Assembly: GCA_947625815.1 (NCBI GenBank)
Contig: CANQPU010000017.1
Span: 1-37,415 of the forward strand
Origin: an uncultured Oscillospiraceae bacterium
Lineage (GTDB): Bacteria > Bacillota > Clostridia > Oscillospirales > Oscillospiraceae
Length of the DNA stretch: 37,415 nt
Reading direction: 5' to 3'
The translations under genes were made by a program, and so were the position numbers. Shown piece after piece: positions 1,783-36,433 of the stretch. The notes beneath the pieces were generated by a model. That model was not told the origin of the DNA. It ran no database searches and worked only from the letters and a program-made list of their open reading frames with translations. Each line of letters begins with the position of its first letter. Position 1 is the first letter of the stretch.

Positions 1783-3021
1783 ATGAAGCAGACATTCGCT
1801 GACAGGGAAAAATTCGAGGAGATCGCCGCCCGGTACGGCACGCCCATACATGTCTACGACGAGAAGGGAATCCGTGAGAACGCCAGGAGGCTCAACAGGG
1901 CGTTTTCCTGGAATCCGGGCTTTAAGGAATACTTTGCCGTGAAGGCCACGCCGACTCCCGGGATCCTGAAGATCCTGAAGGAGGAGGGCTGCGGCGTTGA
2001 CTGCTCCAGCCTTACGGAGCTGATGCTCTCTGAAAAATGCGGCTTTTCCGGGCATGACATCATGTTTTCCTCCAATGAGACCCCCGTCGCGGATATGAAA
2101 AAGGCCCGGGAGCTGGGGGCGTACATTAACCTGGACGATTATACGCACGTCAAATTTCTGAACGAGATCTGCGGGATCCCCGAGAGCATCTGCTGCCGCT
2201 TCAATCCGGGCGGTGTTTTCTCCGTGGCCAATCAGATCATGGATAACCCCAGGGACGCCAAGTACGGCATGACCAGGGGGCAGATGAAGAGCGCCTATCG
2301 GGATCTTCTGGCCCTCGGCGCCAAGAACTTCGGCATCCACGCCTTCCTCGTCTCCAACGCTACCTTCAACGAATATTACCCCATGATGGCCCGCCAGCTC
2401 TTTACCCTGGCGGTGGAGCTCCATCAGGCCACCGGGGCCCACATCGAATTCGTGAACCTGTCCGGCGGCATCGGGATCCCGTATTACCCCGACCAGATCG
2501 CCCCCAATATCGAGATCATCGCCAACGGTGTGCGGGAGGCGTACAACGAGGTGCTGGTCCCCGCGGGGATGGGGGATGTGAAGATCTTCACCGAGCTTGG
2601 CCGGTATATGCTGGGGCCTTACGGATGCCTGCTGACCCGCGCCATCCACGAAAAGCACATCTACAAGGAGTACATAGGCGTGGACGCCTGCGCCTGCAAC
2701 CTGATGCGTCCGGCCATGTATGGCGCCTATCACCACATCACCGTCCTGGGCAAGGAGGACGCCCCCCACGACCACCTCTACGACGTGGTGGGGTCACTGT
2801 GCGAGAACAACGACAAATTTGCCATCGACCGGGAGCTTCCCGAGATCGACGTGGGGGATCTGCTGGTCATCCATGACACCGGCGCCCACGGCCACGCCAT
2901 GGGCTATAACTACAACGGCAAGCTCCGTTCCGCCGAGGTGCTTCTGAAGGAGGACGGCTCCACGACGCTTCTCCGCCGCGCCGAGACCCCGGAGGATTAT
3001 TTTGCCACGATGGTCTTCTGA
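1783..3021 (+). CDS. lysA: Diaminopimelate decarboxylase-like PLP enzyme
   Basis: Fold-type III PLP decarboxylase of the DapDC/ornithine decarboxylase group, 412 aa, probably making L-lysine from meso-diaminopimelate in the cytoplasm. Visible residues are the PLP lysine Lys54 in YFAVKATPTP, the glycine-rich phosphate loop LSGGIGIPY (227-235), ELGR (271-274, where EPGR is usual) and the active-site Cys340 in GSLCENND. An ATG 30 bases upstream is in frame, but the ribosome binding site GGAGGGG lies just before 1783, so I start there. The gene is monocistronic and followed by a strong terminator. The altered EPGR and 'GSLCENND' motifs suggest a divergent subfamily, so a related substrate such as carboxynorspermidine cannot be excluded. 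Confidence 0.8.
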   Translation: MKQTFADREKFEEIAARYGTPIHVYDEKGIRENARRLNRAFSWNPGFKEYFAVKATPTPGILKILKEEGCGVDCSSLTELMLSEKCGFSGHDIMFSSNETPVADMKKARELGAYINLDDYTHVKFLNEICGIPESICCRFNPGGVFSVANQIMDNPRDAKYGMTRGQMKSAYRDLLALGAKNFGIHAFLVSNATFNEYYPMMARQLFTLAVELHQATGAHIEFVNLSGGIGIPYYPDQIAPNIEIIANGVREAYNEVLVPAGMGDVKIFTELGRYMLGPYGCLLTRAIHEKHIYKEYIGVDACACNLMRPAMYGAYHHITVLGKEDAPHDHLYDVVGSLCENNDKFAIDRELPEIDVGDLLVIHDTGAHGHAMGYNYNGKLRSAEVLLKEDGSTTLLRRAETPEDYFATMVF

Positions 3022-3073
3022 TTTTCGCCGCGCACGCCGCAGGAAGAGCTATTCAAGCGCTTTGACGTAAGAA

Positions 3074-3107
3074 CGCCCCCGATCATCAGATCGGGGGCGC
3101 GGTTTTT
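3074..3107 (+). terminator. Intrinsic terminator after the decarboxylase gene
   Basis: Perfect 11-bp stem CGCCCCCGATC / GATCGGGGGCG with an ATCA loop, followed by a TTTTT run. Confidence 0.85.
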
Positions 3108-3146
3108 ATGGTCTGAAACGCAAATCAGGCTTCGGCAAGGGTGATC

Positions 3147-4004
3147 TCAGAGGGACACCGGCAGGAGGTCAAAGAGGATCCCCAAAAGAACGGAGGAGAA
3201 GAGGACATAGAGAAGGATCTTCATGTTGTCCTTCATGGCGCGGCGGTTCACGCGAAAGAGGACGAGAAGGCCCAGACCGGAGCTGGTGAGAAGACCGGCC
3301 AGCATACTTCCGTCGGTCATGGCGCCCTCCAGAAAGAGCTTTGTGATGAGGATGCTGGCCGCGCAGTTGGGGATGAGGCCCACAAGGCCGGAGAGAACGG
3401 GGCCGACGACGGGCTTATTGAGGATGAGGGAGCTTAAATTGTCCTCCCCGATAAAGTGGAGGATCAGTCCGAGGACCAGATTGATGAGAAGGACGAAGAC
3501 CGCGATCTGGAGAGTGTGCAGGAGGGCGGAGAGGAAGATGCCGTGCTTTTCACAGCCGCAGTTCTCCTCCTCGCAGAGCTCATGGAGGTCGATCTTTTCC
3601 CCCTCGTGGCGGCAGAGCCGGAAAAGCTTGTCAGCGGCGATGCCCGCGGCAAGACCGCAGAGGAGCTTGAGAGCCAGGATCTTCCCGATGATCACGGGGC
3701 TGACGGCGTTGGAGATCATGATGGGGAGCATCTCGTCCGAGGTGGAGAGGAAGACGGCGATGAGAGTCCCGGCCGAAATGAGCCGCTGGGCGAAGAGATT
3801 GGAGGCCGAGGCGGAGAAGCCGCACTGGGGGATGATGCCCAATGCCGAGCCGGCAAGCGGGCCCCACACGCCGGACTGGCGCACAAGCTTCAAAGAACCG
3901 GCTTCGGCCTTCTCCTCGATAAACTCCAAGATAAGGTAGGTCAGATAGAGAAACGGCAGGAGCTTCAGGGTGTCCAGCGCCGCGTCAAGAATGATATCCA
4001 GCAT
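3147..4004 (-). CDS. Putative heavy-metal/arsenic efflux permease (ArsP_2-like)
   Basis: Polytopic membrane protein of 285 aa resembling the clostridial 'arsenic efflux / putative manganese transporter' family (ArsP_2, PF11449 in my recollection). It has two related halves: GIIPQCGFSAS (57-67) with STSDE in the first, and GLIPNCAAS (209-217) with TSSG in the second, the PxC motifs probably facing the transport path. Between them is a soluble loop rich in metal ligands (Cys131, His133, His141, Cys144, Cys149, Cys151, His154). The substrate is not determinable from sequence; arsenite, Mn and other divalent metals are all possible. The ATG has a GGAGGAG ribosome binding site. The leader is short and holds no Mn riboswitch. 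Confidence 0.72.
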   Translation of the reverse strand: MLDIILDAALDTLKLLPFLYLTYLILEFIEEKAEAGSLKLVRQSGVWGPLAGSALGIIPQCGFSASASNLFAQRLISAGTLIAVFLSTSDEMLPIMISNAVSPVIIGKILALKLLCGLAAGIAADKLFRLCRHEGEKIDLHELCEEENCGCEKHGIFLSALLHTLQIAVFVLLINLVLGLILHFIGEDNLSSLILNKPVVGPVLSGLVGLIPNCAASILITKLFLEGAMTDGSMLAGLLTSSGLGLLVLFRVNRRAMKDNMKILLYVLFSSVLLGILFDLLPVSL

Positions 4005-4035
4005 GATCTCCTCCGAAAACGTGTTTCAAAAAATT

Positions 4036-4064
4036 ATAATAGCATTTTGAGGCTGTTTTCGCAA
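4036..4064 (-). promoter_or_regulatory. Promoter of the efflux permease gene
   Basis: Minus-strand TTGCGA (4059-4064) and TATTAT (4036-4041) with a 17-bp spacer, about 30 bp upstream of the start codon. Confidence 0.6.
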
Positions 4065-4116
4065 GTGCTTTTTCCTTTGATCTGAAGGTCCGGCCGCCCC
4101 TTTCTTTTTCTTGTTC

Positions 4117-4145
4117 TTCCAATTCGGCGCCAGATGTGATATAAT
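4117..4145 (+). promoter_or_regulatory. Candidate distal recG promoter
   Basis: TTCCAA (4117-4122), 17 bp, then TATAAT (4140-4145) with an upstream TG (extended -10). A transcript from here would carry about 130 nt of leader, including a GTCCC...GGGAC hairpin with an inner CCGCCC/GGGCGG stem (4181-4215) that has no T-run behind it. Confidence 0.45.
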
Positions 4146-4228
4146 ATCTGCCAAGCAAATATTATATTTGATTTTAAGCTGTCCCGCTCCCGCCCTGCGG
4201 GCGGAACTGTGGGACATGGCGAATATAC

Positions 4229-4256
4229 CACAAAATCTTAGATTTTGTGATACAAT
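4229..4256 (+). promoter_or_regulatory. Proximal recG promoter with overlapping palindrome
   Basis: TACAAT (4251-4256) is preceded by TG (4248-4249), an extended -10. The -10 is directly abutted by a perfect inverted repeat, CACAAAATC-TTA-GATTTTGTG (4229-4249), which covers the spacer and -35 position. This geometry is typical of a repressor operator, though the same sequence could fold as an RNA hairpin in transcripts from the distal promoter. Confidence 0.55.
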
Positions 4257-4282
4257 AGACGGAGAGAAAGGAGGGAGACGGC

Positions 4283-6340
4283 ATGGCGAACCTGGATATG
4301 GAGGTCCAGTACATCAAGGGCGTGGGGGAGCAGCGGGCCAAAGCCTTTGCGAAGCTGGGCGTGTTCAGCCTACGGGATCTGGTGATGGACTTTCCCAGGG
4401 CCTACGATGACCGGCGGGAGGTCCGGGACATCTCCGGACTCATTTTCGGCGAGATGTGCTGCGTCAGCGCCACCGTCGCCGCCCCGGCGCGCCTCTCCCG
4501 TATCCGCAAGGGACTGGATATCACCAGAACGGTCGTTGTGGACGGCGCGGGGCGGATGACCGTCACCTTTTTCAACCAGAGCTATGTGAAAAACGCCCTC
4601 ATCCCCGGGGAGAGCTATATTTTCTACGGCCGTGTGGGCGGACGCATCGGCGCGCCGGAGATGACGAACCCGGTCTTTGAGCGTGAATCCGCCGAGCCGG
4701 CGGTCACGAGGCGGATCGTGCCGATCTATCGGATGACGGCGGGGCTGAGCCAGAGGATGATCCGATCCGCCGTCCGACAGGGGCTGGACAAGTGCGGCGA
4801 GGAATTCCCGGAGCAGCTGCCGCTGGCGGTCCGGGAAAAGTATAAGCTTGCCCAGACCAGATTCGCTTACGAGAATATCCATTTCCCCAAGGATATGGAG
4901 AGCCTTGAGATCGCCCGGCGCAGGCTGATCTTTGAGGAGCTGTTCGTCCTCTCCTGCACCCTGAGCTTCATGCGCACCCGCCAGCTCCGGAAAAGCGCCT
5001 GCCGGATCGTTCCGGACGGGATGGAGACCTTTTATGACGCGCTGCCCTTTGCCCTCACCGGGGCGCAAAGACGGGCGATCGACCAGATCCTCCGGGATAT
5101 GGCCGGGGAACGGCCCATGAGCCGCCTTCTTCAGGGCGACGTGGGCTCGGGCAAGACGGCCGTGGCCGCGGCGGCGGCGTATGCCGTGACGAGATCGGGC
5201 TACCAGGCGGCGTTCATGGCCCCCACGGAGATCCTGGCGGAGCAGCATTATAAGTCCCTCTCCGCGCTGTTAACCCCCCTGGGCGTGCGGGTGGATATCC
5301 TCACGGGGGGGCTGGGCGCGAAGGCCAAAAGGGAGGCTCAGGAGCGGCTGAAAAACGGGGAAACCGACCTCGTCATCGGCACCCACGCGCTTTTGTCCGA
5401 CAAGGTGGAGTTTTCCCGTCTCGCTCTGATCATTGCCGACGAGCAGCATCGCTTCGGCGTCCAGCAGCGGGCGGCCCTTTCGGACAAGGGCGACACGCCC
5501 CATGTGCTGGTCATGTCCGCGACGCCCATCCCGCGGACGCTGGCGCTCATCGTTTACGGCGATCTGGAGGTCTCCGTGATGGACGAGCTGCCCCCCGGGC
5601 GGCAGACCATCGACACCTTCCTCGTCGGGGAAAACCTGCGCCAGAGGGTTTACGCCTTTATCAGAAAGCAGGTGGCGGAGGGAAGGCAGGTCTTCATCGT
5701 CTGCCCCGCGGTGGAGGAGACGGAGGAGCCCGCCGACGGCCTCAAGTCCGTGAAGGAGTACGCCCGGGAGCTTCAGGAAAAGGTGTTCCCGGATCTCAGG
5801 ATCGCGCTCGTACACGGAAAGCTCAAAGCCAAGGAGAAGAACGACGCCATGGAGTCGTTTGCCGCGGGGAACACGGACATCCTGGTGGCCACCACGGTCA
5901 TCGAGGTGGGGGTGGACGTGCCCAATGCCTCGCTGATGGTGGTGGAGAACGCCGACCGGTTCGGGCTCTCCCAGCTCCACCAGCTCCGGGGACGCGTGGG
6001 CAGGGGAGCGCATAAGTCCTATTGCGTCCTCTTTCAGGGAGCCGGGGGAGAGACGGCCATGGAGCGCCTTCGGGCCTTTACCAGGACGAACGACGGCTTT
6101 AAGATCGCGGAGGAGGATCTGGCTCTGCGCGGTCCGGGGGACTTCTTCGGCTCCCGGCAGAGCGGACTGCCCGACATGCACATAGCCAGCTTTGCCTCGG
6201 ATATGGAGATGCTGAAGACCGCCCAGTCCGCCGCCAAAGAGCTGCTGGAGAGGGACCCGGAGCTTAAAAACGCCGAAAACGCCGTCCTTCGGGAGAGCGT
6301 GGAAAGACTGTTGGAGAAAAACAGGGGGACGTTCAACTGA
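4283..6340 (+). CDS. recG: ATP-dependent DNA helicase RecG
   Basis: Branched-DNA helicase of superfamily 2 that reverses stalled forks and processes Holliday junctions. At 685 aa it is full length. The N-terminal part has the helix-hairpin-helix-like start (IKGVGEQRAKAF, 11-22) and the OB-fold wedge (about 60-150). The motor follows, with Walker A GDVGSGKT (285-292), the RecG-type DEQH box (386-389), SATPIPRTL and the C-terminal motif TTVIEVGVDVP with QLRGRVGRG. AGGAGGGAGAC ribosome binding site; ATG start. The stop is followed by a CCCCGGA/TCCGGGG hairpin (6344-6362) without an adjacent T-run, so read-through into the next gene is possible. Confidence 0.97.
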   Translation: MANLDMEVQYIKGVGEQRAKAFAKLGVFSLRDLVMDFPRAYDDRREVRDISGLIFGEMCCVSATVAAPARLSRIRKGLDITRTVVVDGAGRMTVTFFNQSYVKNALIPGESYIFYGRVGGRIGAPEMTNPVFERESAEPAVTRRIVPIYRMTAGLSQRMIRSAVRQGLDKCGEEFPEQLPLAVREKYKLAQTRFAYENIHFPKDMESLEIARRRLIFEELFVLSCTLSFMRTRQLRKSACRIVPDGMETFYDALPFALTGAQRRAIDQILRDMAGERPMSRLLQGDVGSGKTAVAAAAAYAVTRSGYQAAFMAPTEILAEQHYKSLSALLTPLGVRVDILTGGLGAKAKREAQERLKNGETDLVIGTHALLSDKVEFSRLALIIADEQHRFGVQQRAALSDKGDTPHVLVMSATPIPRTLALIVYGDLEVSVMDELPPGRQTIDTFLVGENLRQRVYAFIRKQVAEGRQVFIVCPAVEETEEPADGLKSVKEYARELQEKVFPDLRIALVHGKLKAKEKNDAMESFAAGNTDILVATTVIEVGVDVPNASLMVVENADRFGLSQLHQLRGRVGRGAHKSYCVLFQGAGGETAMERLRAFTRTNDGFKIAEEDLALRGPGDFFGSRQSGLPDMHIASFASDMEMLKTAQSAAKELLERDPELKNAENAVLRESVERLLEKNRGTFN

Positions 6341-6448
6341 CGCCCCCGGAAAGGATCCGGGGACTCGTCCCGCGGGAGCCGACGCCGCTTTTTTCTCATG
6401 CCGACATGTAAGGCCGCATATACTTGACCGGGAAAGTCGGGTGAGGAT

Positions 6449-7774
6449 ATGAAGGCGCGAAGGCTCGCGGTGAATACGGCGATCAGCACGCTGGCCGCCA
6501 TCTTTACGCAGGCGCTGGGACTGTGGTTCCAGTCTGTAATGGCAAAGCGGGTCGGCGCGGCGGGGATCGGGCTCATGGGGCTCATCTCTTCCGTGGGCTC
6601 GCTGGCCGCGACCTTCGCCATATCGGGGATACGCTTCGCCACCACAAGGCTGGTGGCGGAGGAGATGGGCCTTTCGCGGGAGGAGAGGATCCCGGGGCTT
6701 CTCCGCAGGTGCCTGCTCTACGCGATCGTGTGCGGGAGCGCCGCGGGGGCGGTGCTCCACCTGTCCGCCAATGTGGTGGCCTCGCGGCTGCTGACCGATG
6801 TGAGAGCGGCGACGGCGCTGCGGGTCCTGGCCGTCGGGATGCCCTTTCTGTCTGCCGGCGCGGTGCTGGGAGGCTATTTCACCGGCACCTGTCGGGCCGG
6901 GATGGCCCTGGGAGGCTCCGTTACGGAAGAGGTGGGCCGGGTGGGCGTCACCTTCTGGCTGCTCACGTGCCTGGATACCACGGATCCGCGGATCACCTGT
7001 GCCGCCGCGGCGGCAGGCAGCGCCGCGGGAGAGGTGCTGTCGTTCGCGGTCCTGCTCCTGCTCTACGCGCTCGACAAAAAGCGGCCTCGAAAAAAAGCCC
7101 CGCCTGCCCCGGGACAGCTCCGGCGGATCGTGGGGGTGGCCGTGCCTCTGGCCTTCACCGCCTACGCCAGAGTGGCCCTGAAAACGCTCCAGCAGCTTTT
7201 GATCCCCATCGGGCTCACCCGGTCCGGCGCCTCCGCGGAGCGGGCGCTGGCCGGTTACGGCACCGTGCGGGGGATGGCCATGCCGGTCATCACCTTCCCC
7301 ATGGTGTTCTTCGCCTCCGTCTCCGAGCTGATCGTCCCGGAGCTGACGGAGGAGCAGGTGCGCGGCAACCGGGGCGTGATCGACCGCTCGGCCAAGGCGC
7401 TTCTGAGCTTCACGCTGATTCTGTCCGCCGCGGCGGCGTGCTTTGCGCTGCTGTTCTCGGAAAAGCTGGGGATCGTGCTCTTTTCCAGCCGTGAGGCGGG
7501 CAGGTTCATTGCCCTGCTTGCGCCGCTGATGCCCATCATGTACCTGGACAACGTGACCGACGGGATGCTCCGGGGCCTGGGGGAGCATATGTACACCATG
7601 GGCCTCAATCTGGCCGACTCCCTTTTGTCCACCGCCGCCATGTGGCTCGTCCTGCCCAGGTTTGCCCTGGACGGGTATATCGGGATCCTGTATGTCTCGG
7701 AGATATTGAATTTTGCCCTCAGCCTCCGGCGGCTCTCCGGCGTGACGGACGGGCGGATCGTAAAAAATATGTAG
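6449..7774 (+). CDS. SpoVB-like MATE/MOP-superfamily flippase
   Basis: Polytopic membrane protein of 441 aa from the oligosaccharide flippase part of the MOP superfamily (SpoVB/MurJ/Wzx-like), expected to move lipid-linked glycan precursors across the membrane. The start (NTAISTLAAIFTQALGLWFQ) and later the segment GLGEHMYTMGLNLADS resemble B. subtilis SpoVB, needed for cortex synthesis. About 12-13 hydrophobic segments are visible, with a basic loop (KKRPRKKAPP) in the middle. Start ATG follows a GTGAGGAT ribosome binding site. It lies 108 bp after recG. Assignment as the sporulation protein rather than another glycan flippase is an inference; spoVB-like paralogues are common in Clostridia. 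Confidence 0.8.
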   Translation: MKARRLAVNTAISTLAAIFTQALGLWFQSVMAKRVGAAGIGLMGLISSVGSLAATFAISGIRFATTRLVAEEMGLSREERIPGLLRRCLLYAIVCGSAAGAVLHLSANVVASRLLTDVRAATALRVLAVGMPFLSAGAVLGGYFTGTCRAGMALGGSVTEEVGRVGVTFWLLTCLDTTDPRITCAAAAAGSAAGEVLSFAVLLLLYALDKKRPRKKAPPAPGQLRRIVGVAVPLAFTAYARVALKTLQQLLIPIGLTRSGASAERALAGYGTVRGMAMPVITFPMVFFASVSELIVPELTEEQVRGNRGVIDRSAKALLSFTLILSAAAACFALLFSEKLGIVLFSSREAGRFIALLAPLMPIMYLDNVTDGMLRGLGEHMYTMGLNLADSLLSTAAMWLVLPRFALDGYIGILYVSEILNFALSLRRLSGVTDGRIVKNM

Positions 7775-23445: not shown

Positions 23446-25716
23446 ATGAAAGCTATTGTGATGGCCGGCGGAGAGGGGACAAGACTGCGCCCCCTGACCT
23501 GCGGACGGCCCAAGCCCATGGTGGAGATGTTTGGCAGGAGCGTTTTGGAGCGTGCCCTGGAGAGGCTCAGGCGCCTCGGGATCGTGGACATCCGCCTGAC
23601 CCTGCGTTACCTTCCTGAGAAGATCATGGACGAGCTGGGCGACGGAGAGCGCCTCGGCGTCCGCGTTTCCTATCTGGTGGAGGACAAATCCCTCGGAACG
23701 GCCGGGAGCGTCCGCGCGTGCAAGGATTTCATCGGCGAGGAGGACGTGCTCATCGTCTCCGGCGACGCCGTCTGGGACTTTGAGCTGGAGGGGATCCTGA
23801 AGTTCCACAAGGAACAGGGCGCGGACGCCACGCTCGTTCTATATAATCACCCGGATCCCACGTCCTTCGGCCTGGTGCTCACCGACCCGGACGGGCGGAT
23901 CAGGGCCTTTTCGGAGAAGCCTTCCTGGGAGCGGGTTGTGACGGACCGGGTCAATACAGGGCTTTATGTCCTGTCGCCCCGGGCGGTGGATGCCATCCCC
24001 GAGGATGAAGAATATGACTTCGGAAAGGACCTGTTTCCAAGACTTCTGCGGGAGGGATACGCCCTTTATGGGGCGGACGGCCGCGGCTACTGGTGCGATA
24101 TAGGCAGCGCGGCAAGCTACCGGCAGTGCTGCATGGACATCCTCGCGGGCAGGGTGGATATGGATATTGGGGGATCCGACACGCAGGAGGCGCGGAGGGC
24201 CGGCGTGGAGATTTTAGAGCCGGTGTATATCTCGCCGGAGAGCCGCCTGATGCCCGGGTGCCGTCTGGGTCCCAACGCCGTCATCGGCCCCGGGACAATC
24301 GTGGAGAGTGGGGCCCGGGTGACGGAGAGCGTGGTGAACGGGGCGCGTCTGGGAGAAAACTGCGATATACAGGGGGCCATCCTGGGCCGCGGGGCGTGGA
24401 TCGGCGCTTCCGCGCGCGTCTCCTCCGGAGCGGTCATCGGCGACGGCGCGCGTATCGGCCCGTCCGCCGCCGTTCTGGAAAATGTCAGCGTCTGGCCGGA
24501 CCGGACCGTCAAGTCCGGCGCCGTCCTCACCGAAAACCTCACCGACGGGACGCAGGAATGCCCCCCGGCCTTCGTCTCCGAAAAGCAGATGACCGGCACC
24601 GCGGAGGCACTGCTGGAGGCTGCGGTGGGTATAGGCGCCCATCTGGGCCGGACAGGTATGGTGGGCATCGCCCATACGGGCGGCGACCGGGCGCGGCTCA
24701 TCGCCGACGCCATCCTTTGCGGCGTCACCGCCGCCGGGGGAGAGGGGACCCGCGCCGACTGTGCCTTTGAGGCGGAGCTTGCGTCTCTGGCGGCCGTGTT
24801 TTCCTTCCGGCGGTGCGTCTTTGTCCGGGCGGAGGAGGAGATCACGGTGACGGTCCTGGGGCCGGCGGGCGTCCCGCTGGAGCCCGGGGAGCGCAAGGCG
24901 CTGAATTCCGCCGTGCGCAACTGCGTCCCTGCGCGGGTAAACGACGTGGGGCCTGTCGTCAACATCACGGGTATGCCGCGGGCGTATATCTCCGCCCTGT
25001 GCGCCGATGTCCGGGAGCTTTATGGCGTGCCCCGGCCGGTGTGCGTGACCGTCTCCGGCGACGATGAGGAAAACGAGACGCTCCGGCGTGTGCTGGAGGC
25101 CCTGGGACACCGGGTCCTGCCCGCGCAGAAGGGCAGAGCCTCCGTGTCGGTCTCCCGTGGCGGCTTCGGATTCACGGCAACGGACGAGCGCGGCCGCCCC
25201 GCCGACGAGGCGCGCTGCGCCCTGCTTGCCGCCGAAGCGGCCATGCGGCTGGGCGCCGGTAAGCTGGCGGTGCCGGCGGACTTCCCGGAGGCCGCAAGAA
25301 GGCTGGGGGCCAAGTACGGCTGCGCGGTCCTGGACGGCGGGACGGCGGACGGCCGGGAGCTATTCCGCCGACAGCGCTTTTTGCGGGACGGCGTTCTGGC
25401 GGCCGCGGTGACTGTTGCCGCCATGGGACGGGACAATATGGAGATGGCGGGGCTTCTGGACAGCCTTCCCGACTTTGCGGTGGCGCGGGGGAAGATCGAC
25501 ATCTCCCGCTCCCGGGCTGAGGCCATGCGGATCCTGGCGGAGACGAACGCCGAGCTGTCCGCGGATCTGGTGAGCGGTCTGGTGGCGGCTACGCCTCACG
25601 GCGGCGTCCGGATCAGACCGGACGGCGACAGCCCGGCCCTCATCGTCAGGGCGGAAGCGGACAGCATGGAGGCGGCGCAGGAGCTTCTGGGAAAATATAC
25701 GAGCCAACAAATCTGA
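23446..25716 (+). CDS. NDP-sugar pyrophosphorylase fused to a degenerate phosphomutase domain
   Basis: 756-aa fusion. Residues 1-235 form a sugar-1-phosphate nucleotidyltransferase (GGEGTRLRP 8-16, RPKPM 21-25, VSGDAVWDF 104-112, GYWCDIG 214-220), the ManC/glucose-1-phosphate type. Residues 250-355 are hexapeptide repeats of a left-handed beta helix. Residues about 380-756 align in layout with alpha-D-phosphohexomutases, but I find none of their catalytic loops: the TASHNP phosphoserine loop is replaced around RAEEEITVTVLGPAG (461-475), the DGDADR metal loop by SRGGFGF, and the RPSGTEP phosphate loop by RPDGDSP. The mutase part is therefore probably a non-catalytic, perhaps regulatory, domain. 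The nucleotide-sugar product is unknown. GGGAG ribosome binding site. Confidence 0.85.
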   Translation: MKAIVMAGGEGTRLRPLTCGRPKPMVEMFGRSVLERALERLRRLGIVDIRLTLRYLPEKIMDELGDGERLGVRVSYLVEDKSLGTAGSVRACKDFIGEEDVLIVSGDAVWDFELEGILKFHKEQGADATLVLYNHPDPTSFGLVLTDPDGRIRAFSEKPSWERVVTDRVNTGLYVLSPRAVDAIPEDEEYDFGKDLFPRLLREGYALYGADGRGYWCDIGSAASYRQCCMDILAGRVDMDIGGSDTQEARRAGVEILEPVYISPESRLMPGCRLGPNAVIGPGTIVESGARVTESVVNGARLGENCDIQGAILGRGAWIGASARVSSGAVIGDGARIGPSAAVLENVSVWPDRTVKSGAVLTENLTDGTQECPPAFVSEKQMTGTAEALLEAAVGIGAHLGRTGMVGIAHTGGDRARLIADAILCGVTAAGGEGTRADCAFEAELASLAAVFSFRRCVFVRAEEEITVTVLGPAGVPLEPGERKALNSAVRNCVPARVNDVGPVVNITGMPRAYISALCADVRELYGVPRPVCVTVSGDDEENETLRRVLEALGHRVLPAQKGRASVSVSRGGFGFTATDERGRPADEARCALLAAEAAMRLGAGKLAVPADFPEAARRLGAKYGCAVLDGGTADGRELFRRQRFLRDGVLAAAVTVAAMGRDNMEMAGLLDSLPDFAVARGKIDISRSRAEAMRILAETNAELSADLVSGLVAATPHGGVRIRPDGDSPALIVRAEADSMEAAQELLGKYTSQQI

Positions 25717-25785
25717 TAAGCCGGGAAAACCCGGCTTATACATAGGTTTGTACTGTCCGCCTCCCGCCCGGCGGGCAGATTTTTT
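25716..25785 (+). terminator. Tandem hairpins ending the pyrophosphorylase transcript
   Basis: First hairpin ATAAGCCGGG / CCCGGCTTAT with an AAAA loop (25716-25739) lacks T-runs. The second, CTGTCCGCC / GGCGGGCAG (25753-25778), is followed by ATTTTTT and is a good intrinsic terminator. Confidence 0.8.
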
Positions 25786-25795
25786 AAAAAAGATG

Positions 25796-25881: not shown

Positions 25882-26634
25882 ATGAAAAAGGTATTTTCCG
25901 CGGCGCTGGCCGCTCTTATCATGATCTCCCTCGCCGCCTGCTCCCGCGGCGGGGACAGCCGGATCCGGGACCTTGACGACCTGGCGGGGAAAACCGTCGG
26001 CGTACTGCGCGGCACCTCCTCGGAGGGGTATCTCCGCCACTTTGAGTATGATGTGGAGGTCCGGGAGTATGATGATACGGACGCCCTGAAAAAAGCCCTC
26101 AGGAACGGACAGGTGGACTGTGCCGTCGCGGAGGAGGAAAAGGCCGGGGAGATGACCGGCTTTCTCTCGGGGCTGGAGACGCTGGAGGAGCCCTTCACGG
26201 ACTCCGATTACGTCATAGCCGTCTCCGCGGAGAACCGGATCATGGTGGAGAACCTGAACATCGCCCTGAGCGGGATCGACCGCTCCGGCGAGCTTGACCG
26301 GCTGACGAGCGGGACGGGGGGCGTGATCACCCCCGCGGAGGACACGGGGACCGCCGTCACCGTGGCGGTTGACGCCACCTTTTACCCCTACGCCTACTAT
26401 GACGGGGAGGGCGACCTGGCGGGCGTCGAGATCGACCTTGTGAGGGCAATTTGCAAGTATCTGGGCCTTTCCCCTGAATTTTTGCCGGTGGAAACGGACA
26501 TGCTTCTCTACATGGCGGAGAGCGGCAAATGCTCCTTCGCCGTTGGCAGGATCACAGCGGACCCCGCCGACGAGGGCCTTGCTTTCACATCGCCGTATCT
26601 GCATTCAACACAGCTTATAGTTGTGAGAAAATAA
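25882..26634 (+). CDS. Lipoprotein, SBP_bac_3-type binding protein with swapped (circularly permuted) lobes
   Basis: 250-aa exported lipoprotein: signal peptide with lipobox LAAC (Cys20). The rest resembles amino-acid-type ABC solute-binding proteins (SBP_bac_3), but in reversed lobe order. Residues 29-144 read as the second lobe and C-terminus of such a protein ([21 protein letters not shown], then [19 protein letters not shown] and a [16 protein letters not shown] tail). Residues 158-250 read as the first lobe ([53 protein letters not shown]) and stop exactly where the hinge would continue. A 17-residue linker joins them. The ligand is unknown and no ABC permease genes are near. Weak GGGAT ribosome binding site; asnS begins 12 bases later. 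Confidence 0.8.
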
Positions 26635-26645
26635 GAGGTAATCAT

Positions 26646-28067
26646 ATGGAAATCACTGCAAAACCTTATCCCCAGGAAAAGCTCAGGATCGCCGCCGTCT
26701 ACGCCGACGCCGAGAGCCTGGATGGGCGCACGGTGTCCGTCAGCGGCTGGGCCAGGACCATCCGGGACATGAAGAATTTCGGCTTCATCGAATTGAACGA
26801 CGGCAGCTGCTTCAGGAATCTTCAGGTGGTCATGGAGCGGGAGAGCCTTGCAAATTACGCTGAGATCGCCGGCCAGAACGTGGGGGCGGCTTTGACCGTG
26901 GTGGGGACGATAGCCCTGACGCCCGGGGCCAGACAGCCCCTTGAGTTGAAGGCTCTGGAGATCCGGGTGGAGGGGGCCTCCACCCCCGATTATCCCCTCC
27001 AGAAAAAGCGCCACTCCGTTGAGTACCTGCGGACGATCCAGCACCTTCGCCCCCGCACGAACCTCTTTTCCGCCGTCTTCCGCGTCCGCTCCGTGGCCGC
27101 CTATGCGGTCCACACCTTCTTCCAGGAGCGGGGCTTTGTCTACATCCACACGCCCATCATCACCGGCTCCGACTGTGAGGGAGCGGGGGAGATGTTCCAG
27201 GTGACCACCCTGGATGTGCAGGATCCGCCCCGCCTTCCCGACGGATCCGTGGACTGGAGCCGGGATTTCTTCGGCAAGCGTGCCAATCTCACGGTGTCTG
27301 GCCAGCTGAACGCCGAGAACTTCGCCATGGCCTTCGGCAATGTCTATACCTTCGGGCCCACCTTCCGCGCGGAAAACTCCAACACCCAGCGTCATGCCGC
27401 GGAATTCTGGATGATCGAGCCGGAGATGGCCTTCTGCGATCTGGACGGGGATCTTGAGGTCATGGAGGCGATGGTGAAATTCATCATCAATACCGTCCTG
27501 GAGAAATGCCCGGATGAGATGGCCTTCTTCAATTCCTTTGTGGATACGGGCCTTCTTGACAGGCTCCGCAACGTGGCCGGCAGCGACTTTGCCCGCGTCA
27601 CATACACCGAGGCCGTGGAGATCCTGAAAAAGAACAACGACCACTTCGATTATAAGGTCGATTGGGGCACCGATCTGCAGACCGAGCACGAGAGATACCT
27701 TACCGAGCAGGTGTTCGGCCGCCCGGTGTTCGTCACCGACTACCCCAAGGAGATCAAGGCCTTCTACATGCGTCTGAACGACGACGGCAGGACCGTGGCG
27801 GCGGCGGACTGCCTGGCTCCCGGCATCGGGGAGATCATCGGCGGCAGTCAGCGCGAGGAGCGCCTTGACGTGCTCAGGGAGCGCATGGCGGAGCTTGGCC
27901 TCAGGGAGGAGGACTACTGGTGGTATCTGGACCTTCGCCGTTACGGCGGGTGCCGCCACTCCGGCTTTGGCCTGGGCTTTGAGCGTATGGTCATGTACCT
28001 CACGGGGGTCTCCAACATCCGCGATGTGGAGCTCCATCCGCGTACCGTGGGCAACGCGGACTTTTAA
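26646..28067 (+). CDS. asnS: Asparagine-tRNA ligase
   Basis: Class IIb aminoacyl-tRNA synthetase, 473 aa, charging tRNA(Asn). The N-terminal OB-fold anticodon-binding domain contains [25 protein letters not shown] in outline (29-53). Class II motif 2 is [21 protein letters not shown]-like, and motif 3 is [15 protein letters not shown], ending in [17 protein letters not shown] (usually FPRT). The start is at the ATG behind AAGAGGTAATCAT, 12 bases after the lipoprotein gene; the longer open frame would run inside that gene. No T-box leader is visible; transcription may come from the lipoprotein promoter. Confidence 0.95.
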
Positions 28068-33749: not shown

Positions 33750-35078
33750 ATGCAATTTAATTCTGTTGAATTTATCTTTTACTTTCTCCCCGCCTTTCTG
33801 GCGGTTTACCATCTGTGCAGGGGAACGGCCCAATCGGTCGTCCTGGCTGTCGGGAGCTTTCTATTTTACGGCTTCGCCGTGGAGTGGAACGCCCTGGCCA
33901 TTGGCCTCCTTGCGGGCTGTATGCTCCTGGGCTATCTGGGGGGCCTGACCGTTGGCAGATGGAGAAAGCTCCTAATTCTGCTCCCAATGTGCCTGCTCTA
34001 TGGGGGCGCGCTTGTGTTTTTCAAGCTCTACGTGGGCGGCGGGCTCCTGCCTGTGGGCATGAGCTTCTATGTTTTTCAGCTCATCGCGTACCTTGCCGAC
34101 ATTTACCGCGGGAAGATTTCGGCGGAGAAAAACCCCGTCCGTTTCCTGGCCCAGATGACCATGTTCCCGCGGCTCCTCTCCGGACCGATCGCGGACACCA
34201 GGGAGCTTGCGAGGGACAACCGGCGCCCTCACAAAAAGCTCTTCACCTTCCACCTGGGCCTTCAGGAGTTCATCCTTGGCCTGGGGCTGAAGGTCATCCT
34301 GGCCAATCGCCTTGGCGGCCTCTGGGCGCAGGGGACCATCGTGGGCTTTGAAACGGTCTCCACGCCTTACATGTGGCTGGCGCTTGTGACCTTCTGTATG
34401 CGGCTTTACTTTGATTTTTACGGATATTCCCTTATGGCCGTGGGCCTGGGGCACATGCTGGGCTACAATCTTCCCATGAATTTTCTGGAGCCTTACAGCT
34501 CCAAAAGCGTCTCGGAATTTTACCGCCGCTGGCACGCCACGCTGGGCCGCTGGTTCCGGGATTATATCTACATCCCCATGGGCGGCAGCCGTGCGGGGAC
34601 GGCCCGCACGCTCCTCAATCTGGCCGTGGTCTGGGCCGTTACCGGCTTCTGGCACGGCGTAGGCGGGGGATATATGCTCTGGGCCGGGTTCCTGCTGTTC
34701 TTTATTATCCTTGAACGGCTCTGGCTGAAAAAATATCTGGACAAGTCAAGATTCGCCAGCCATTTATATCTCATATCTGTTATCATTCTGAGTTGGGTCC
34801 CCTTTGCGGCCAGCGGGATAGGGGAGAGCCTGGTCGTCTACCGCCGGCTCTTCGGCATCGGCGGCATCGGCCCGACGGAGGATTTCGCCTATTGGGCGCC
34901 GATCTACGCGCGTCTTGTGGGACTTGGCCTCTTTTTCGCCACGCCCATTCCGGCCAAGATCTGGCGGCAGATCCAGAAAAAGCCTCTGGCGGACGTGGCG
35001 CTCTTTATCCTCTTCTGGGTGTGCCTCTATTTCATTGCCACCTCGGCGCAGGATCCCTTCATCTATTTTGATTTCTGA
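33750..35078 (+). CDS. MBOAT family O-acyltransferase (AlgI/DltB-like)
   Basis: 442-aa polytopic membrane acyltransferase. The layout is that of AlgI/PatA-type MBOATs: about 11 hydrophobic segments, FDFYGYSLMAVGLGHMLGY (211-229), FYRRWHATLGRWFRDYIYIPMGG (His262 region; written here in outline) and the invariant catalytic histidine in VTGFWHG (His302). Such proteins pass an acetyl or other acyl group from a cytoplasmic donor across the membrane for transfer to an exported polymer, normally with an SGNH partner, which follows here after 17 bases. The acceptor (exopolysaccharide, peptidoglycan or teichoic acid) is unknown. Weak ribosome binding site. Confidence 0.92.
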   Translation: MQFNSVEFIFYFLPAFLAVYHLCRGTAQSVVLAVGSFLFYGFAVEWNALAIGLLAGCMLLGYLGGLTVGRWRKLLILLPMCLLYGGALVFFKLYVGGGLLPVGMSFYVFQLIAYLADIYRGKISAEKNPVRFLAQMTMFPRLLSGPIADTRELARDNRRPHKKLFTFHLGLQEFILGLGLKVILANRLGGLWAQGTIVGFETVSTPYMWLALVTFCMRLYFDFYGYSLMAVGLGHMLGYNLPMNFLEPYSSKSVSEFYRRWHATLGRWFRDYIYIPMGGSRAGTARTLLNLAVVWAVTGFWHGVGGGYMLWAGFLLFFIILERLWLKKYLDKSRFASHLYLISVIILSWVPFAASGIGESLVVYRRLFGIGGIGPTEDFAYWAPIYARLVGLGLFFATPIPAKIWRQIQKKPLADVALFILFWVCLYFIATSAQDPFIYFDF

Positions 35079-35095
35079 TTTCAGGCGGTGCTTCC

Positions 35096-36433
35096 ATGAA
35101 ACTCCATTATACGGCGCTGGGCGCCTCCATAGTTTTGAGCCTGGCGGCCATTGCGGCCGTGGGAATATATCAGAAGGACAGTGTCCTCCGTCCCCTTGAG
35201 CTTGACGAGGGGATCGACGCCGTCAAGGTGCCCTTCCTGCTGGCCGCGGACGACGAGCTGAAGCTTCAGGTGAAGATCGCCCGCGAGATCCGTGCGGAGG
35301 AGCTTCTGGAAAAGGACGAGACGGACAGCATGGTGACCGTCAAACCGCCGCTTTCATCGGGCCATGAGCACACGGAGTTCATTCCGAATACGACGCCCCC
35401 GGACAGCGCCACCCCCCCGGACACGACGCCCCCCGAAACGACACCCCCGGACGACGCTACCCCCCCGGATACGACGCCGCCGGAGACCATAGAGCCGCCC
35501 GAGACGACGGACCCGCCGGAGGATCTTCCCGCCCAGCCTCCCGTTTCCCCGCCGGTGGTCAACAGCAGCGGGAAGACCGTCACCGCCGGCGCCGGCGGCA
35601 ATTTTGAGCCGGGAGAGATGGTGGATGAGAGCTGGTTCGATGACGCCTTGTTTATCGGCGATTCCCGGACCGACGGCCTCCGTCTCTACTCCCGCATCGG
35701 CAAGGCGGACTATTTTTGCTCCACCGGCCTTTCGGTCTTCACCGTCCTTACAAAGGAGCTTTCCGACAAAAACTTCTCCGAGCAGAAGCTGGAGACGCTC
35801 CTTGAGAGCCGGACCTACGGAAAGATCCTCATCGGTCTGGGCATCAACGAGTGCGGCTCCAGCCTGAAGGCTTTCACAAAGTCCTATTCGACCCTCATCG
35901 AAACGGTCAGGGCCAAACAGCCGGACGCCTTGATCATCCTTCAGTCCATTATGACCTGCAGCCCCAAGAAGGAGGCCCAGGGCTCCAATTTCGGCCCGGC
36001 GAATCTCTATACCCGCAACGAGGCCATTCGCGGCCTTGCTGACGGCGTCCATGTGTTTTACATAGACGTGAACACGGTCTTCGCCGACGAGAACGGCTAC
36101 CTGCCCTCCGGCTTTTCCAGCGACGGCTGTCATCTTTACGCCAAATACTATCCCCTCTGGGTCGAGTGGATCCGTTCGGCCGTTTATGACATCCTGAACC
36201 CCCGATCCGTTTCGGACACGCCGGAGCCGCTTCCGCCGGAGGAGGGGACGGAGACATCCGATGATCAAACGCAGACCGAGGACGGGACCCCGCCCTCTGA
36301 GGAAACGTCGCAGCCCCCTCAGCCGGATGACGGCGCCGCCTCCGGCGGGGGCGGCACTGAGCCCGTCCAGCCGGAGATCGGCGACTCAGGGCTCAATCAG
36401 CCCGGCGCCGACCGGGAGCAGAACGGCACGTAA
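35096..36433 (+). CDS. SGNH/GDSL hydrolase-like membrane-anchored protein with proline-rich linker
   Basis: 445-aa protein. An uncleaved N-terminal helix (about 8-24) and a conserved juxtamembrane module (VLRPLELDEGIDAVKVPF, 30-47) precede a TPP-rich linker (about 98-152). Then comes the SGNH domain, with ALFIGDSRTDG (Ser190), IGLGINECG (Asn241) and SSDGCHLYAKYY (Asp333, His336). The C-terminus (about 367-445) is a low-complexity Pro/Glu/Gly tail. Paired with an MBOAT protein, it likely completes O-acyl transfer to, or removal from, an extracellular polymer, as AlgX/AlgJ, PatB or DltD do. The glycine of block II is not obvious. Start ATG with AGGCGGTG. A terminator follows. Confidence 0.87.
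   Translation: MKLHYTALGASIVLSLAAIAAVGIYQKDSVLRPLELDEGIDAVKVPFLLAADDELKLQVKIAREIRAEELLEKDETDSMVTVKPPLSSGHEHTEFIPNTTPPDSATPPDTTPPETTPPDDATPPDTTPPETIEPPETTDPPEDLPAQPPVSPPVVNSSGKTVTAGAGGNFEPGEMVDESWFDDALFIGDSRTDGLRLYSRIGKADYFCSTGLSVFTVLTKELSDKNFSEQKLETLLESRTYGKILIGLGINECGSSLKAFTKSYSTLIETVRAKQPDALIILQSIMTCSPKKEAQGSNFGPANLYTRNEAIRGLADGVHVFYIDVNTVFADENGYLPSGFSSDGCHLYAKYYPLWVEWIRSAVYDILNPRSVSDTPEPLPPEEGTETSDDQTQTEDGTPPSEETSQPPQPDDGAASGGGGTEPVQPEIGDSGLNQPGADREQNGT

Follow-up and report, generated by a model that had tools for sequence, protein, structure and literature searches.

The window, that is, the whole stretch of 37,415 nt that was analysed, carries on its forward strand a gene for a lipoprotein in which the parts of a family-3 (type II) solute-binding protein (SBP) follow one another in the order lobe 2, tail, linker and lobe 1 (Table 1). 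The source organism is a gut bacterium and the SBP is a nutrient-binding surface protein. The gene lies between a sugar-nucleotide pyrophosphorylase-like gene and a gene for asparaginyl-tRNA synthetase, for which we keep the name asnS from an earlier note on this DNA. That note had placed asnS next downstream at a distance of 12 bases; the neighbour is as described, and its start codon (ATG at 26646) lies 11 nt past the SBP stop. Because two hairpins, one of them terminator-like, stand upstream of the SBP gene, the SBP and asnS are probably transcribed together. As for an RNA leader, Rfam at gathering scores gave zero matches in the window, and in ten sources it returned only a tmRNA (L058) and a T-box (L066), the latter about 5 kb from the SBP. 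Elsewhere in the window (33750-36433), an MBOAT acyltransferase gene is followed by a GDSL lipase/acylhydrolase gene (Pfam), a combination that we take to resemble O-acetylation pairs.

Table 1. Features of the SBP-asnS region, in window coordinates
Feature	Position	Strand	Basis and remarks
NTP_transferase/hexapeptide gene (sugar-nucleotide pyrophosphorylase-like)	23446..25716	+	Pfam; upstream of SBP; synteny marker
Pair of hairpins with a T-run after the second one (terminator-like)	25716..25786	+	Fold and sequence; separate the SBP-asnS unit from the gene upstream
Circularly permuted SBP lipoprotein gene (CP-A order)	25882..26634	+	250 aa; Pfam, TIGR01096, own profiles
Signal peptide and lipobox LAAC	25882..25941	+	Sequence; Cys is residue 20
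Lobe 2 and C-terminal tail (residues 24-142; canonically the second half)	25951..26307	+	TIGR01096 119-246; L2a and L2b profiles
Linker from ancestral C terminus to ancestral N terminus (about residues 143-158)	26308..26355	+	Gap between profile matches; approximate borders
Lobe 1 (residues 159-250; canonically the first half), stopping at the inter-lobe hinge LIVVRK	26356..26631	+	SBP_bac_3 1-92; L1 profile
asnS (asparaginyl-tRNA synthetase)	26646..28067	+	11 nt 3′ of SBP

Domain order of the window protein

The earlier note had read this protein as a circular permutation, and its landmarks lie where it had put them: the lipobox LAAC, an 11-residue start, an 11-residue tail, a 15-residue segment and LIVVRK directly before the stop. 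The signal peptide matches LPAM_1 (Pfam) with 10.6 bits, under the family cut-off, and the N termini of relatives also show lipobox-like sequence ahead of a Cys. In a separate run, the C-terminal half (residues 150-250) aligned with lobe 1 in TIGR01096 (NCBIfam; model positions 17-118). Lobe 1 was likewise matched by Pfam SBP_bac_3 (positions 1-92 on residues 159-250, E = 1.7e-20) and by our own lobe 1 profile (E = 2e-11). The N-terminal half was assigned to lobe 2 on the strength of TIGR01096 (positions 119-246 on residues 24-142) and its sister models, PDB chains and our own profiles; the earlier note had named a placement in the first lobe as refuting its reading, and TIGR01096 and our profiles do not give one. 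Its lone alignment with Pfam SBP_bac_3 (12.3 bits, E = 0.15, positions 37-125 of the 132-position model) is weak and decides nothing, and other weak matches of this half, Phosphonate-bd (4e-4) and NMT1 (2e-3), are below cut-off. That is, TIGR01096 and our profiles recognise both lobes, and with Pfam SBP_bac_3 lobe 1 alone reaches significance. For the whole protein, the SBP_bac_3 score lies above its cut-off (73.6 versus 26.4) and the TIGR01096 score below it (85.8 versus 256.35). The Pfam and NCBIfam matches listed for the protein include no type I SBP family.

In the PDB, residues 12-104 of AncQR (4zv1) correspond to residues 159-250 of the window protein, and residues 104-226 to residues 22-141. 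PDB sequence searches covered the best 60 each of 86, 75 and 70 distinct sequences for the window protein, a CP-A query (P0002) and a CP-B query (P0003), respectively; among the matches listed, 6h30 alone spans the rotated joint with its best stretch, and 6h30 is a tandem of two canonical units. The order in which lobe 1 precedes lobe 2 in the SBP_bac_3/TIGR01096 family is thus reversed here, and sequence comparison confirms the window protein as a circularly permuted family-3 SBP. In the topology that follows from this order, the break would fall within the first of the hinge strands between the lobes, and the lipid anchor would be attached to lobe 2 at its hinge side.

Three profiles, for lobe 1 (L1), the first half of lobe 2 (L2a) and its second half with the tail (L2b), were built from the canonical loci L048-L050. 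They distinguish three rotations among relatives in the order: canonical (L1-L2a-L2b), CP-A (L2a-L2b-L1), to which the window protein belongs, and CP-B (L2b-L1-L2a).

Conservation in the genus and linkage to asnS

Sixty genomes were compared, including that of the window (G000), and 34 of them belong to the same genus. A homologue covering most of the protein is encoded by 31 of these 34, and in all 31 it is adjoined by a co-directional asnS homologue. In 26 distinct rows, the aligned part of asnS begins -1 to 68 nt past the last SBP codon. The open frames measure 254-301 aa, with one exception that is extended upstream (L037, 436 aa), and all 31 contain each lobe once, with lobe 2 in front (26 scored by three profiles, 5 by two). 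Four of the genus relatives are MAGs deposited as uncultured Oscillospiraceae with isolate names beginning with 'Lapin', a word that suggests a rabbit host. Searches of viral contigs and plasmids found no relatives. Nei-Gojobori dN/dS ratios for 11 pairs, calculated on frames that run from stop to stop and include some upstream codons, were 0.11-0.29 in ten pairs and 0.54 in one, which indicates that the SBP gene is maintained under purifying selection in the genus.

These relatives also bear on whether the rotated order could be an artefact, produced either by truncation of a tandem SBP or by misassembly. Tandem SBPs able to mimic the match do occur among the relatives (L092, L093). Against this stand the short frames with one copy of each lobe, lobe 2 first, throughout the 31 genomes, and the presence of both CP-A and CP-B in one single-contig genome of 2.19 Mb (G276). 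For the window gene, the truncated copy that the earlier note had named as a possible refutation is therefore ruled out by the relatives, as is misassembly, and an artefact appears extremely improbable.

The ligand pocket

For the alpha-amino-acid site we assume the numbering of GlnH, in which Arg75 holds the carboxylate and Asp157 the amino group; the two columns were located by motif. The window protein has Asp in the Arg column and Glu in the Asp column, in place of the residues of an alpha-amino-acid binder. The ligand Arg is absent from all 26 scored genus rows and the Asp is retained in 16. In addition, all 26 rows share an invariant Gly-Arg ('GR') where canonical rows read Ala-Gly. In the stretch after it, which is hard to align, some other Arg is found in 7 of the 26 rows and none in 19; the window protein is one of the 19, with no other Arg between GR and a conserved Tyr. 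Five genus loci stand outside the 26-row set as one profile did not score (L015, L016, L018, L036, L037); four of them read 'GR', and L037 reads 'GG'. A stand-alone lobe-2-first protein (L059 in G038, 6238-7134, minus strand) reads 'GRL' at the changed pocket site, and its 11.8-kb locus contains no permease or ATPase match.

Divergence of the window protein is faster in lobe 2 (nearest identity 0.48) than in lobe 1 (0.73). Together with the missing ligand Arg and the lack of an adjacent permease or ATPase, this could be taken to mean that the gene is decaying after the loss of its importer and has no present function. The intact frames of the relatives, the low dN/dS ratios in ten of the 11 pairs and the presence of GR in every scored row argue against such decay, which we regard as improbable.

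Three rotations in the order

To survey the order, 295 evenly sampled genomes were searched with P0002 (E <= 1e-32; up to 8 candidates scored per genome), and 94 contained a match. A rotated match over both lobes was obtained in 36 genomes, which resolved into 31 with single-unit CP-A, three with lobe-2-first tandems and two with canonical tandems. In a further category, 19 genomes gave a match confined to the second half of lobe 2 and the lobe 1 that follows it, and all 19 proved to be CP-B. With the two canonical tandems removed, and G276 carrying both rotations, a rotated form is present in at least 52 of the 295 genomes. In a survey of 398 genomes of the phylum (up to 6 candidates scored per genome), CP-A was found in three at E <= 1e-40 and CP-B in none at E <= 1e-44. 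Two genomes initially classed as CP-A (G217, G322) were dropped, their loci L092 and L093 being canonical tandems in 772- and 761-aa ORFs; they had looked permuted because a query that crosses the tandem junction mimics CP-A. Canonical tandems are thus a trap for surveys of rotated SBPs.

Scanning the loci with the lobe profiles gave single-unit rows of 25 canonical (the profile sources L048-L050 being themselves among the rows counted), 95 CP-A (63 distinct) and 30 CP-B (23 distinct) proteins; 10 rows matched just two of the three profiles. The earlier note had proposed to collect homologues and look for conservation of the swapped order; in these scans the order is conserved. Single-unit CP-A proteins keep one lobe 2 and one lobe 1, joined by a linker of about 7-28 residues. 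Besides the two canonical tandems there are seven lobe-2-first tandems (L039-L041, L045, L051, L115, L122; the first L2a of L045 did not score), which carry permease matches in the same frames, and some of these fusions include the ATPase too. The L045 frame (G038) is a 1224-aa ORF in which four lobe-2-first SBP units in tandem are combined with a permease match. Because canonical tandems and permease-fused lobe-2-first tandems both exist, the duplication-then-trimming origin proposed in the earlier note is plausible.

Rotated proteins at importer operons

Two findings go beyond what the earlier note had described: CP-A proteins are commonly encoded at importer operons elsewhere, and there is a second rotation, CP-B. 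Among the 63 distinct CP-A proteins, 33 have a PAAT permease directly downstream or fused, 29 do not, and one (L043) is cut by the contig end. All 33 with a permease keep both the ligand Arg and the ligand Asp, one residue in each lobe, and none of the 29 without a permease has Arg at the ligand column (the contig-cut row being left out). Both ligand residues are likewise kept in all 23 distinct CP-B rows, where the permease is downstream, overlapping or fused, and in all 25 canonical rows, which also have a permease. Judging by their gene content, CP-A and CP-B operons would import amino acids.

Two loci are of interest for their arrangement. In L118 (G298, 2888-4670, minus strand), a CP-B and a CP-A SBP gene lie side by side upstream of a shared permease and ATPase, the CP-A gene standing between the CP-B gene and the permease. 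In L142 (G244), a CP-A SBP, permease and ATPase are followed by a co-directional asnS homologue, possibly hinting at an asparagine importer. It is a hint only, because asnS lies downstream of the CP-A operon in one of 20 widened CP-A loci (L138-L157).

The operon-linked proteins also inform on whether the two lobes pair within one chain. The lobes might instead pair between chains, in a domain-swapped dimer, or as half-domains with other proteins; tandem arrangements are present in the order, and AlphaFold, run on the window protein and four relatives (five sequences only), gave a model that was not confident (mean pLDDT 49.8, pTM 0.39). Nevertheless, single-unit CP-A proteins keep a single copy of each lobe and a linker of about 7-28 residues, and those at importer operons retain both ligand residues, one per lobe. 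Pairing outside the chain therefore seems an improbable arrangement, slightly more so than decay, and we expect the two lobes of a rotated chain to fold onto each other.

How often rotation happened

A careful tree of 94 rows, from which 17 of 111 were left out (13 from the genus and 4 that were long or doubtful), implies four changes for CP-A and six for CP-B, of which starred branches force at least three and at least five, respectively. A quick tree of all 111 rows implies six changes for each, with only two and three forced. The AU test rejects a single clade for CP-A (p = 7.8e-7) and for CP-B (p = 3.2e-10). CP-A as one clade is still rejected (p = 0.004) after removal of L094, L096 and L116-L119, in which the break lies, by eye, about 20 residues further in; for CP-B group 1, a set with similar-looking linkers, the one-clade test is borderline (p = 0.042). 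The rejections thus suggest that rotation recurred, that is, that it arose more than once in nutrient importers. Since linkers are common to some groups, the claim is limited to the rejection of one clade per rotation.

Rotation may also be reversible. Tree and linker comparison show canonical genes nested among CP-B genes that have one common linker (the borderline one-clade test above), and one CP-A group resembles one CP-B group at the lobe 2-lobe 1 joint. The cleanest pair consists of CP-B L055 (G034) and canonical L126 (G256), which are 79% identical in lobe 1 and 80% in lobe 2, are sisters in the tree (support 100/97) and are each followed by a permease and an ATPase.

History of the window gene

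Several loci share parts of the window's neighbourhood. The locus in G035 (L056) is syntenic with the window and has, in sequence, an NTP_transferase homologue, a CP-A SBP, a permease and an ATPase. In G276 (L091) the NTP_transferase homologue is likewise immediately 5′ of a CP-A SBP, with no permease within 1.5 kb downstream, and in G034 (L066) the gene after a CP-A SBP is homologous to the AAA gene found beyond asnS in the window. By eye, an N-terminal 'PxNxVFSxxDL' signature is common to the window protein and the operon-linked CP-A proteins L068, L069, L071 and L074. The orphan clade sits on a long branch and the tree itself does not join it to the operon group; one clade of orphans and operon group I is not rejected by the AU test (p = 0.25).

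The earlier note had found no ABC permease nearby. This holds and can be widened: no TIGR01726 match, the signature of PAAT permeases, was obtained at E <= 1e-3 anywhere in the window's genome, a 96% complete MAG, in a search that found a match in 11 of 14 known genomes used as control. Across the 31 gene-bearing genus genomes, TIGR01726 has no match in 10 (the window's included), a sub-cut-off match in two (G001, G006) and an above-cut-off match in 19. The protein might therefore still serve transport, handing its ligand to a permease, PAAT or other, whose gene lies elsewhere. Its SBP architecture and lipobox would suit that role, and some of the permeases in those 19 genomes belong to giant SBP-permease-ATPase fusions. 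Against it stand the genomes with no match, the window's and nine others, and the distribution of the ligand Arg, which is present in CP-A proteins with an adjacent permease and missing in those without. We consider continued transport unlikely, if the strongest of the alternatives.

The reading that we favour, at a probability of roughly 0.6, is that a rotated SBP of a PAAT importer lost its permease and ATPase, was kept by selection beside asnS, and now closes on a non-standard ligand as a sensor or scavenger. The ancestor would have been a rotated SBP serving a polar-amino-acid (PAAT) ABC importer, its old C and N termini joined by a linker, the hinge strand cut and the lipid anchor moved from lobe 1 to lobe 2. 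In the genus lineage, permease and ATPase would have been lost from the locus, a direction of change that we infer, and the SBP retained next to asnS. The pocket has changed as well: there is no Arg left in the carboxylate-binding column, and the invariant Gly-Arg is new nearby. Most likely the protein still closes on a small ligand, though no longer on one of the standard alpha-amino acids bound in the usual manner, and acts at the membrane surface by relaying this binding to some system that is not a PAAT importer. Sensing or scavenging is probable because the window's genome has no PAAT permease match; the suggestion of a sensor or scavenger instead of a transport component, already made in the earlier note, fits this as well as the lost ligand Arg. 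The window protein is a derived orphan, and it most likely binds its ligand outside a PAAT importer.

Relation to known systems

The window protein shares both lobes, the tail and the lipoprotein anchor with family-3 polar amino-acid SBPs (SBP_bac_3, TIGR01096; GlnH, HisJ, AncQR 4zv1), from which it differs in being rotated, in having no Arg at the ligand column and in coming from a genome with no PAAT permease match. 6h30, a two-SBD chain of a glutamine ABC transporter permease/SBP protein, has tandem lobes as do the permease-fused relatives described here, but its units are in canonical order, whereas the tandems L039-L041, L051, L115 and L122 start with lobe 2.

The sole natural permuted SBP found in the literature searched, which took in few subscription journals and was partly accessible, is TpMglB-2 (Tp0684) of Treponema pallidum, a type I SBP that binds D-glucose (PMC4990184). 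According to that paper, it is permuted inside the N lobe, which gives a fourth crossover, and was proposed as 'Type Ic / Cluster Bc'; its reported relatives come chiefly from treponemes and from Gram-positive bacteria and include many gut commensals (PMC4990184). The likeness is that of a natural circular permutation in a lipid-anchored SBP; unlike that type I protein with its N-lobe cut, the proteins described here are of type II, are cut at the hinge in the window protein's case, and occur in three rotations among close homologues. No natural permuted type II SBP was found in the accessible parts of the literature searched (including PMC4990184, PMC2912341, PMC10601554 and PMC9815098, and few subscription journals). 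A segment rearrangement earlier in SBP history, the 'domain dislocation' from type I to type II (Fukami-Kobayashi 1999, as described in PMC9815098), was proposed as an ancient swap that created a fold, whereas the rotation described here separates present-day type II genes, one pair of which is 80% identical.

Considering the family as a whole, the type II SBP chain in this bacterial order may behave like a ring with several possible cutting points, with three importer rotations, several events and perhaps reversibility, and with the window SBP having left transport to become an asnS-linked receptor or scavenger; we would give this broader picture an even chance. Most often, natural circular permutations have been inferred by comparing distant proteins. 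In the present family, rotated and canonical genes, once as much as 80% identical, share the same SBP-permease-ATPase setting, and therefore the effect of rotation on hinge motion, permease docking and lipid anchoring, as well as its origin, becomes testable. The family is in this sense a natural experiment in re-cutting protein chains, and it shows that profile annotation can conceal rotated proteins behind partial matches. Within it, the window gene is an orphan that has retained the rotated order without an adjacent transporter.
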